Source of the DNA: an uncultured Porphyromonadaceae bacterium
GTDB taxonomy: Bacteria; Bacteroidota; Bacteroidia; Bacteroidales; Paludibacteraceae
Assembly (NCBI GenBank): GCA_949285425.1
Contig: CASEAJ010000125.1
Span: forward strand, 1-64,000
Reading direction: 5' to 3'
DNA length: 64,000 nt
Positions 41,891 through 63,576 of the stretch are shown piece by piece. A model generated the notes under the pieces. It worked only from the letters and a program-made list of their open reading frames with translations, made no database searches and was not told the origin of the DNA. The position numbers and the translations under genes were made by a program. Position 1 is the first letter of the stretch; the number at the start of each line of letters is the position of its first letter.

Positions 41891-41948
41891 TTGGCAGTCC
41901 GAAATGAACCCTTTTTCGTTATTCCGGCATTCTGATATTTCGTCGTTT

Positions 41949-42094
41949 GCCTGTCCATTCTTTGAAAATCGCCTGTCTGTTTTTTGAAATATGCCCGTTC
42001 ATTCTTAAAACTACAGTGCAGTTTGTAAAAACTAAACCGTAGTTTTTATAAACTGAACCGTGGTTTTTATAAACCGCACTGTAGTTTTAAGAAT
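41949..42094. repeat. Periodic palindrome array C (four units, 21-bp period) with three degenerate 22-bp units upstream
   Basis: Four 17-bp near-palindromes, AAACYnnAnYGnnGTTT, start at 42008, 42029, 42050 and 42071, an exact 21-bp period. ATTCTTAAAACTACAGTGC (42001-42019) and its exact complement (42076-42094) cap the block. Directly upstream are three degenerate 22-bp units beginning GCCTGTCC, GCCTGTCT and GCCCGTTC at 41949, 41971 and 41993. The unit differs from arrays A, B and D, but the four-unit geometry is the same. Confidence 0.85.
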
Positions 42095-42220
42095 TTGTGC
42101 GCATGTGCGGAATTTTATATGGTGAGAAAAGGACGAATGTGTGCCGGAAAGGGGAAAAATGTGTAGGGCAGGCCGGCGGGGAAAACCGGCAACTCTATGC
42201 TGGCGTATGGATTTTTTCCG

Positions 42221-42260: not shown

Positions 42261-44213
42261 ATGATAGATCAGGCAACCATAGACCGCATAAACGACGCGG
42301 CACGCATAGAAGAGGTCGTGGGCGATTACGTCACGCTGAAAAAGCGGGGTGTCAATCTGTTGGGCTTGTGTCCGTTCCACAACGAAAAAACACCCTCGTT
42401 CATCGTGTCGCCGGCCAAAGGCATATTCAAGTGTTTCGGTTGCGGCAAAGGGGGCAACGCGGTGCATTTCATCATGGAACACGAGCAGTTGAATTACTAT
42501 GAGGCGTTGAAGTTCCTGGCCCGGAAATACAACATTGAGGTGGTGGAAAAGGAGCTGACCCCAGAAGAGGCGGCCGCACGCAACGACCGGGAGAGCATGT
42601 TCCTGGTAAACGAGTTTGCACAGAAGTATTTTACCGACACGCTTTACCACCATGTCGATGGTAAGGCGGTGGGCATGGCCTATTTCCGCGAGCGGGGATT
42701 CCGCGACGACATGATTCGGAAATTTCAGCTGGGTTTTTCGCTCGACGAGCGCGATGCTTTCACCCGGGCGGCACAAAAGGCCGGCTACAACAAGGACTAT
42801 CTTGTGAAGACGGGTCTGACGCTTGAGTACGAAAACGGACAGCTGGCTGACCGCTTCCGCGGGCGTGTCATGTTTCCGGTGCATTCGCTTTCGGGCAAGG
42901 TAGTGGCTTTCGGCGGACGTGTGCTGAAAAAAAGCGACAAGACGGCGAAATATGTCAATTCGCCCGAGTCGGAAATATACCACAAAAGCAACGAACTTTA
43001 TGGCATTTATTTCGCCAAGCAGGCCATAGTGCGTGAAGACCGTTGTTTCCTGGTCGAAGGCTACACCGATGTCATATCCATGCACCAGTGCGGCATTGAG
43101 AACGTGGTGGCCTCGTCGGGCACTTCGCTTACCGGGGGGCAGATACGGCTCATTCACCGCTTTACAAACAACGTAACCGTACTTTACGATGGCGATGCGG
43201 CCGGTATCAAGGCTTCGATAAGGGGTATCGACCTGCTGCTTGAAGAGGGGCTGAACATTCAGGTGCTGCTGTTGCCCGATGGAGAAGACCCGGATTCGTA
43301 TGCCCGGACACACAACGCTTCGGATTTCATTGAATTTATCAGGGAAAATTCGACCGACTTCATTCGTTTCAAGACCAAGCTGTTGTTGGAGGATGCGGGG
43401 AACGACCCAATCAAACGCGCGGCACTGGTGGGCGATATCGTGCGGAGCATTGCCATTATCCCCGACCAGATTATCCGTGCGGAATATGTCAAGGAGTGCA
43501 GCATTCTGCTGAACGTGGCCGAAGAGACGCTGTATTATGAGATAAACAAGCTGAAGGGCAGGGAGCGCGAGAAACAGTTTGCGGCGCGCCAGCAGCAGGA
43601 AGCGGTTCAGCAACCTTTGCCGCAGGGCGAAGAGTTGCCGCAGGTGATGGATGTGTCGGCAGTCCGTTTCGAGAAAGAGGAACGGAACATTTTGCAGGTA
43701 TTGATGAAATACGGCAAATTCATCTTGTTCAAGGATGAAGAACAGCAGCAGGAGAAGACCGTCGCCGAATATGTGATAGGTGAACTGGACTATGATGGTC
43801 TGTCGTTTGAAAACCCGTTGCACCAGAAGGTGCTGGCTGAATACCGCCAACACTTGAACGATGCCGATTTTCAGCCGGAACGCTATTTCCTCAATCACAC
43901 GGATGGAAACATGAGCCGCCTGGCTGCCGACCTGATAGCCGACCGGTATGTGCTGAGCAAGGTTCATGCACGGAGCGGCAACCTGGTGCCGGATGAGGAC
44001 CGCTTGCTGGAGCTGGTTCCGCGTATTGTGCTGGAACTGAAAAACAGCGTGGTGCTGGCCGAGATAAAGCAGAAACTGCTTGAAATGAAAGCTGCCTGTG
44101 AAGCTAAAGACAATGTGCGGGTCGATGCGATTATGCGGGAAATGAAACAGCTGGATGAAGTGAAGAAGCAGTTGGCCAAGGCTTTGGGCGAACGGATTAT
44201 AAACAGATTGTAA
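42261..44213 (+). CDS. dnaG: DNA primase
   Basis: DnaG (650 residues) lays RNA primers for replication. The zinc-binding domain has Cys37, His40 (CPFHNEKTPSF) and Cys58, Cys61 (CFGCGKGGN). The catalytic core has the family's SLSGKVVAFGGR and NSPESEIYHKSNELYG, and the TOPRIM fold includes LVEGYTDVISMHQCG and LYDGDAAGIKA. The C-terminal helicase-binding region (about 440-650) is more variable. The ATG at 42261 follows a −7 element at a normal distance. The DUF3267 gene follows after four bases. Confidence 0.96.
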   Translation: MIDQATIDRINDAARIEEVVGDYVTLKKRGVNLLGLCPFHNEKTPSFIVSPAKGIFKCFGCGKGGNAVHFIMEHEQLNYYEALKFLARKYNIEVVEKELTPEEAAARNDRESMFLVNEFAQKYFTDTLYHHVDGKAVGMAYFRERGFRDDMIRKFQLGFSLDERDAFTRAAQKAGYNKDYLVKTGLTLEYENGQLADRFRGRVMFPVHSLSGKVVAFGGRVLKKSDKTAKYVNSPESEIYHKSNELYGIYFAKQAIVREDRCFLVEGYTDVISMHQCGIENVVASSGTSLTGGQIRLIHRFTNNVTVLYDGDAAGIKASIRGIDLLLEEGLNIQVLLLPDGEDPDSYARTHNASDFIEFIRENSTDFIRFKTKLLLEDAGNDPIKRAALVGDIVRSIAIIPDQIIRAEYVKECSILLNVAEETLYYEINKLKGREREKQFAARQQQEAVQQPLPQGEELPQVMDVSAVRFEKEERNILQVLMKYGKFILFKDEEQQQEKTVAEYVIGELDYDGLSFENPLHQKVLAEYRQHLNDADFQPERYFLNHTDGNMSRLAADLIADRYVLSKVHARSGNLVPDEDRLLELVPRIVLELKNSVVLAEIKQKLLEMKAACEAKDNVRVDAIMREMKQLDEVKKQLAKALGERIINRL

Positions 44214-44971: not shown

Positions 44972-44977
44972 CAATGT

Positions 44978-45097
44978 GATTTTTTTCATAGTGTATTAGA
45001 TTTAAGGTTAACGAAGATTGGTTGTCGTGAGACAACCATTTCTTTTTATGAGGAAGTCGAAAAAGAAAGGAAACCGTTCGGTTTCCTTTCTTTGATT
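44978..45097 (+). ncRNA. Candidate small RNA (about 120 nt)
   Basis: From the predicted transcription start the sequence has an AT-rich lead, an 8-bp hairpin TGGTTGTC-GTGA-GACAACCA (45019-45038), a short spacer, and a 14-bp terminal hairpin with TTTCTTTG. It has no ORF longer than 15 codons; the best, ATG at 45049, runs into the terminal stem. The independent promoter plus terminator suggests a transcribed non-coding RNA. The terminal stem also suits the minus-strand radical SAM gene, so the case rests mainly on the promoter. Confidence 0.45.
45062..45093. terminator. Terminator of the radical SAM gene (bidirectional)
   Basis: AAAGAAAGGAAACC (45062-45075) pairs perfectly with GGTTTCCTTTCTTT (45080-45093) around GTTC. 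On the minus strand the stem continues into TTTTTC; on the plus strand TTTG follows. Confidence 0.8.
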
Positions 45098-63381: not shown

Positions 63382-63576
63382 CACTTCCTATAGTATCTTT
63401 CCCAACTTCCTATAGTACGTTTTTTAACACTCATTCTTTTGCTCTTGTTATACCTTGGCTGTCAGTCGGTTATTTGCTTGACAGAGTGATAAAACTAACT
63501 ATAGCACGTTGGGCAACTACCTATAGCACATTGAACAACTAACTATAGGAAGTTGAGTAACTGACTATAGGTGGTT
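63382..63576. repeat. Periodic palindrome array D (two plus four CTATAG units, 22-bp period)
   Basis: Near-palindromic 18-mers AACTnnCTATAGnnnGTT have their CTATAG at 63388 and 63410, and again at 63499, 63521, 63543 and 63565. The spacing is exactly 22 bp within each group. The left pair and the right four are 89 bp apart. AACTTCCTATAG in the left pair is the exact complement of CTATAGGAAGTT in the right group. The spacers between units are 4 bp. A pair with the same spacing occurs at 2514-2553. Confidence 0.88.

Follow-up and report, generated by a model that had tools for sequence, protein, structure and literature searches.

Array C, a block of four short palindromes at a strict spacing, stands upstream of a gene that, from its sequence, we take to be the DNA primase gene dnaG. 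The locus raises the question of what such a block is for, and why blocks of the same layout and other unit sequences occur elsewhere in the window, by which we mean the whole 64,000-nucleotide stretch of DNA analysed here. Arrays of this class are linked to genes for HU-HIG proteins and co-vary with them, and array C, judging from sequence comparison, is very probably a binding array of one such protein (L219); it is a scattered copy, whose founder counterpart stands before the L219 gene. Throughout, G000 denotes the source genome, G001-G004 its relatives, C a contig and L an extracted locus, and an array before an HU-HIG gene is called a founder.

Layout of array C and of its companions in the window

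Array C consists of four AAAC-N9-GTTT units at a period of exactly 21 bp, separated by 4-bp AT-rich linkers (Table 1). The preliminary description had given the unit as AAACYnnAnYGnnGTTT, enclosed by a 19-bp perfect inverted repeat and preceded by three degenerate 22-bp units, and all of this proved exact: the consensus fits 4/4 units at the period given, the inverted repeat is present and sits within a 32-nt pair that is 94% complementary, and the 22-bp units begin at 41949, 41971 and 41993, the second and third being 73% and 68% identical to the first. Missed at that stage was the right arm, where a 22-bp unit (GGACGAATGTGT) at 42131 is followed by an 83% repeat at 42153. In both arms the 22-bp period is directed away from the core, and a terminal inverted repeat test found them inverted yet degenerate in the window copy; in the arms of related arrays (n=154) the lag-22 match was 0.384, versus 0.25 in 146 control segments.

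That the unit changes between arrays while the geometry is kept, as had also been noted, is seen in the family A arrays of the window, which belong to the same class as array C and are built of other units. A family A counterpart stands before another HU-HIG gene (G000:C97:63553). A protein partner was also looked for in the case of the family D array, and none was identified; a candidate is the long HU-HIG gene at G000:C65:31413, whose upstream sequence is truncated.

Table 1. Positions of array C, of other features of the window, and of arrays at loci encoding PF18291 proteins in the source genome
Feature	Position	Strand	Remark
Left arm of array C, degenerate 22-bp units	41949..42000	.	similar arms in other copies
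19-bp perfect inverted repeat, left half (ATTCTTAAAACTACAGTGC)	42001..42019	.	
Array C unit 1, AAACTACAGTGCAGTTT	42008..42024	.	
Array C unit 2, AAACTAAACCGTAGTTT	42029..42045	.	
Array C unit 3, AAACTGAACCGTGGTTT	42050..42066	.	
Array C unit 4, AAACCGCACTGTAGTTT	42071..42087	.	
19-bp perfect inverted repeat, right half	42076..42094	.	
Right arm of array C, degenerate 22-bp units	42095..42164 (end approximate)	.	inverted orientation
Downstream gene, presumably dnaG	42261..44213	+	
FopS sRNA (Rfam RF04319)	44976-45049		64.6 bits; 3 kb from array C
Family A array, TTTTCAC-N4-GTGAAAA, 22 bp x4	9519..9601	.	same class as array C
Family A array, second window copy	18952..19034	.	same class as array C
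Family D array, AACTAACTATAGCACGTTGAGC, 22 bp x3.5	63493..63570	.	same class as array C
L219 HU-HIG gene	C97:17116-17730	minus	upstream array AAAC..GTTT
PF18291 match in L219	C97:17344-17724		66.8 bits, gathering cut-off 26.2
Family C founder array of L219	C97:17971		
L208			upstream array TTTTCAC..GTGAAAA
L209			upstream array GTCCCAC..GTGGGAC
L211			upstream array GATGCGCATC
L213			upstream array TTCCG..CGGAA
L214			upstream array of TATGACCT type
L216			upstream array AACCCA..TGGGTT
L217			array on 3' side
L218, short HU-HIG gene (C98)	2010-2287 (upstream)		23-bp, 12-copy, 97% identical minisatellite, runs off contig
L220			array about 525 bp upstream
L207, L212			cut by contig ends

HU-HIG proteins as probable partners of the arrays

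With 24 loci dropped by eye as coding-type repeats, a filter that applies to the consensus, mismatch and neighbour-ORF analyses alike, we clustered the ORFs around 112 arrays among the matches listed and found one family adjacent in five loci, namely HU-HIG (PF18291). A PF18291 scan that covered four of these five foreign partners scored them at 39.8-68.3 bits. Other gene clusters near arrays comprised a helicase/UvrD-like ORF and an ORF without Pfam match (7 and 6 loci), followed by an LRR/kinase-like protein and a TonB receptor. The source genome has 16 PF18291 matches, L221 and L222 among them, which we read as ordinary HU proteins. For all five of the five foreign proteins beside AAAC..GTTT arrays, L219 was the best match among these 16, and Bacteroides finegoldii (WP_022275387) has the identical pairing; there the array lies 101 bp before the start, itself closely preceded by the motif TACCTTTG.

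Other paralogues carry other units (Table 1). No array was found upstream of L210 or L215, several short HU-HIG genes have 23-bp arrays, and a family A array lies 248 bp before L221, which we read as an ordinary HU gene. The preliminary description had likened the changing unit to a site family that paralogous proteins recognise, a suggestion that gains strong support here: the unit type immediately upstream differs between HU-HIG paralogues, and, as far as sequences indicate, the AAAC..GTTT type stays with one clade of proteins in several genera, and units are more alike where the proteins are more alike.

The L219 protein is predicted to comprise an HU domain and then a C-terminal winged helix. 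In a low-confidence model of the HU-HIG protein L174 built on a shallow alignment, residues 141-205 reached a mean pLDDT of about 83-92, the rest, including the HU part, being poor, and the C-terminus was arranged as helix-helix-helix-strand-strand (three helices, two strands). Foldseek returned winged-helix and HU structures among its matches to this model, none with E <0.001, and no sequence relative of L174 was found in the PDB.

Dispersal in the genome and across Bacteroidales

Searching the source genome for family C returned 22 rows at E up to 10, the 12 strong ones amounting to six places (on C125, which holds the window, and on C84, C3, C119, C97 and C92); family A occupies several dozen places. 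One family A subfamily joins three GTCCCAC..GTGGGAC units and one TTTTCAC..GTGAAAA unit within one array, which suggests putative joint binding by the paralogues L208 and L209. The C type is present in two of three congeners, both with many more copies than the six of the source genome, and missing from the third (G003); it occurs in 3/61 genomes with the source genome counted, and in 3/250 by exact pattern.

Scanning 84,980 species genomes for the pattern yielded at least 119 stretches, mostly in Bacteroidales (Prevotella, Bacteroides, Parabacteroides, Phocaeicola). Among the matches listed plus five viral stretches (124 arrays), 74 had four units and 26 had three, and the consensus over 80 distinct four-unit arrays among the matches listed was AAACnnMGnCKnnGTTT. 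With run length unconstrained, and counting arrays that scored at least 0.6, the 26 arrays before long HU-HIG genes fell into 16 of four units and 10 of three, with none longer, and 16 genome-sample arrays into 10 of four, 4 of three, 1 of five and 1 of six. We set aside a phage origin: the five viral-contig stretches have identical or near-identical units, and 3/5 lie inside long open frames. Within the order, the exact pattern appeared in four of 393 genomes, two of which (G439 and G052) resemble coding repeats as judged on their sequence; the two true exact-array genomes, G000 and G504, both carry an L219-type protein. The L219-type protein is also present in G021 and G059, where the exact AAAC pattern is absent and the arrays are degenerate or of another unit.

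Tandem Repeats Finder (TRF; period 21-23, at least 2.9 copies) detected 17 arrays in 456 kb of the source genome and 0 after dinucleotide shuffling, so that the excess of 21-22-bp periodicity on which the preliminary description depended is found, over all sequence rather than intergenic DNA only; by extrapolation the genome would hold about 110 arrays. In G003, a 99% complete genome of the same genus, this period range gave 0 arrays over 337 kb, and in G004 one period-21 array over 400 kb, with none in shuffles. A PF18291 search of G003 returned only two matches (40.8 and 38.8 bits), both of which we read as ordinary HU, and G003 accordingly as being without HU-HIG.

Several further observations concern the surroundings of the arrays. 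The hybrid arrays (L063-L080, G000) are part of a conserved element that extends beyond them and has its end near ACGTGAGTTCG. Beside array elements, the genus holds further dispersed intergenic repeats (L163, L196), with many extra matches in both genomes searched, and at several contig ends of the source genome (the starts of C49, C36, C15 and C83; L075, L076, L079, L080) array elements are adjoined or broken by what looks like the end of an insertion sequence (..AGTCAACCTTATTCGTTAAATGACA). Among the B. finegoldii, P. distasonis and P. massiliensis sequences that PLSDB calls plasmids (L373-L377), two contain rpsL/fusA or topA and resemble fragments of a chromosome.

Scattered copies might be non-autonomous, MITE-like elements mobilised by an unrelated transposase that acts on the arms as terminal inverted repeats, with the array as passenger, a reading that is compatible with binding by an HU-HIG protein and to which we give somewhat less than an even chance. 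It would account for six copies in the source genome and many more in two congeners, for the inverted orientation of the arms and for the missing copy before dnaG in four relatives, and the end of the hybrid family A element resembles that of MITE239, as given in the accessible part of the source (PMC4596501). However, movement driven by terminal repeats needs no exactly-four units at a fixed period order-wide despite changing unit sequences, neither a target duplication nor a parent transposase was found, nor a clean filled/empty pair with aligned borders, and some sites are common to different species.

Comparison with relatives also bears on the age of the copies. The array is absent upstream of the dnaG orthologue in G001, G002, G003 and G004, where the upstream gene is not conserved and there is no synteny. 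Upstream of dnaG in G001 and G002 (L312, L313) there are arm-like 22-bp repeats without the four-unit core. One site common to G001 and G002 combines nearly identical flanks with a change that affects all four units jointly, a second has the same units in both, and a third shared site again has different ones; such sharing between species means that copies can be old and that units change in concert. The preliminary description had offered, as its other option, a mechanism of copying by which the spacing is fixed and the sequence is not: for the spacing no such mechanism is needed, whereas concerted turnover of units does occur (one conserved site, two species).

Founder arrays and scattered copies

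The -7 box of Bacteroidetes promoters has the motif TAnnTTT[GA]. It precedes 16/39 founder arrays versus 3.6 expected, at a gap of mostly 15-18 bp with a peak at 16 bp, which locates the array directly downstream of the transcription start. Given that the array lies upstream of the putative binder's own gene, we infer that at an HU-HIG gene it serves as an autoregulatory operator, presumably for repression. For family C itself this operator reading is weakened, since the array of L219 lies farther away (about 237 bp upstream of the gene) and has no -7 box just before it.

It is unlikely that every copy is an operator of its neighbouring gene, the arrays then being ordinary regulons of many HU-HIG regulators. 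Most arrays are indeed intergenic (19/21 scattered ones outside predicted ORFs), but scattered copies have no excess of -7 boxes (3/38 vs 2.4 and 10/158 vs 7.2 expected), and their orientation (14 tandem, 5 divergent, 2 convergent) shows no promoter preference over the local 67/16/17 percent.

Strength and specificity of the link

Applied to the 450 bp upstream, TRF found arrays before 9/9 long HU-HIG genes (those of the winged-helix type) of the genus, and in the source genome before 5/5 versus 17/282 background ORFs (Fisher P 1.7e-6); other backgrounds were 2/214 (G003) and 5/261 (G004), short HU-HIG genes gave 5/19, and genes read as ordinary HU 1/9. Order-wide, TRF alone detected only 7/19. 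Measured against shuffled upstream regions (P <0.01), the signal was found in 11/11 long genes of the genus and 18/20 order-wide, in 15/23 short ones and in 1/9 genes read as ordinary HU. Because coding DNA can yield 21-bp signals, the raw period score was also compared with real genes, and it reached at least 0.6 for 10/11 long genes of the genus, 14/20 long genes order-wide and 12/23 short ones, versus 1/9, 17/309, 2/235 (G003) and 3/286 (G004) comparison genes. L340 has no array upstream, and L346 has a weak period score located in coding-like sequence.

The sequence of the units follows that of the proteins. Across 35 long genes, unit similarity correlated with identity over the last 75 residues (rho 0.253, 0/2000 permutations) and more weakly with the HU part (rho 0.179, P 0.001), founders below the score limit (G000_L207, G001_L248, L342) having been dropped; joint inheritance can contribute to this correlation. 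G059 has five paralogues that are closely similar over their aligned length and have similar promoter flanks and different units. One of them (L334) is shortened by a contig end, and in the four complete ones the residues of a putative recognition helix, delimited by eye as LTGLSK-TV/PM/PM/PA-AS-K/R, are among those that vary; L331 and L332 have equal helix residues, and both have TTTCA..-type units. In six genomes, scattered copies on average fit their own founder best (7.39/9 vs 5.31; best of 720 permutations), with the exception of G002, whose copies score marginally higher with the founder of G000 (6.65) than with their own (6.45).

We consider it very improbable that the link to HU-HIG is accidental or mere joint inheritance. 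Arrays are common in the source genome, a gene is inherited together with its promoter, and joint inheritance could partly account for the array-protein correlation; against this stand arrays at all nine long genes versus a 6 percent background, the different units before different paralogues, the five G059 paralogues, and the match of scattered copies to their founder in trans.

An action of the array as RNA, as a long hairpin or terminator, is extremely improbable and was rejected: as RNA, both strands of the window copy fold well (z -7.5 and -9.5), but Rfam gave no match at the array at the gathering score, only FopS, the A.C mismatches in dyads (144) are as frequent as G.U (127), a balance that would not arise in a transcribed hairpin and that points to DNA rather than RNA dyads, and units 1/4 (6.15/9 vs 5.42 for the reverse complement) and 2/3 (6.25 vs 4.54) are alike directly, so that the dyad symmetry of the single units accounts for the palindrome. 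Dyad mismatches cluster slightly by element (204 vs 191.5, P 0.008), as related units would make them do anyway. FopS itself is a family of paralogous Bacteroidetes sRNAs.

Proposed mode of action and significance

On the preferred reading, in which the L219 protein binds array C, protein dimers would read each 17-bp palindrome via the winged helix, with the HU domain bending the DNA, and four dimers two helical turns apart would come to lie on one DNA face and form a compact complex in which about 84-88 bp are curled up. Before the gene of the protein itself, such a complex would stop transcription shortly after its start (negative autoregulation), and the dispersed copies, array C included, would be bound in trans, where they may serve to titrate the protein or to organise the chromosome, or may be MITE-like elements that the protein recognises. 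As a rather doubtful extension, Bacteroidales may possess a paralogue-addressed chromatin or genome-defence system, in which each HU-HIG protein would have a private four-palindrome address, recognise it by its winged helix and form a nucleosome-like complex on it, the promoter address acting as a sensor, scattered or invading copies titrating the protein and so raising its synthesis, and paralogues and repeats co-evolving in an arms race.

Our results suggest a large set of matched HU-HIG protein-DNA address pairs in gut bacteria, apparently undescribed. If so, a whole expanded HU-like family, for which we found no known targets, would gain a concrete and testable DNA target, and the abundant unexplained intergenic repeats of gut Bacteroidales would become readable protein addresses. 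Dozens of natural paralogue-array pairs would offer a direct route to a winged-helix recognition code, as well as orthogonal operator-repressor pairs for Bacteroides tools.

Comparison with known systems

The HU-HIG clade (PF18291) of the HU superfamily was reportedly described by Burroughs et al. in 2017 as a Bacteroidetes expansion with a proposed role against mobile elements. The proteins beside our arrays are members of it by Pfam score. To our knowledge, neither DNA targets nor arrays have been reported for this clade, and a search of the open-access literature, as far as its texts were accessible, found no report of a link between HU-HIG and arrays.

Among described repeats we compared array C with BrickBuilt of Porphyromonas gingivalis, which the accessible part of its description presents as a minisatellite MITE of dispersed intergenic 23-nt tandem repeats, with 1 to 22.8 repeats and a leader and tail with IS5-like ends GAGACC... 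(PMC4596501). Its smallest member, BrickBuilt_14 (84 nt), adjoins the PF00216 (HU-type) gene PGN_0872, and that part of the text notes no link to a binding protein (PMC4596501). The likeness lies in intergenic tandem repeats of Bacteroidales and in the 23-bp arrays found here at several short HU-HIG genes, above all the 12-copy array of L218, which agrees in period and copy number. Array C differs in its unit of 21 bp rather than 23 nt, in having four units and in its ends, GAGACC... being absent from window positions 41900-42200; on these grounds of unit length, copy number and ends, and apart from any comparison of unit sequences, we rejected its membership of BrickBuilt.

Two further systems share parts of the proposed architecture. 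Lrp/AsnC octamers bind tandem sites about two turns apart, and thus resemble the complex proposed here in that several palindromes share one face of the DNA, which is wrapped, and in autoregulation, whereas their protein fold is unrelated and they usually lack genome-wide private arrays per paralogue. REP/REPIN elements are associated with transposase-like RAYT proteins, unlike the arrays described here, and their units are not four in tandem; what they have in common with our arrays is dispersed short palindromes and one cognate protein gene flanked by founder copies.
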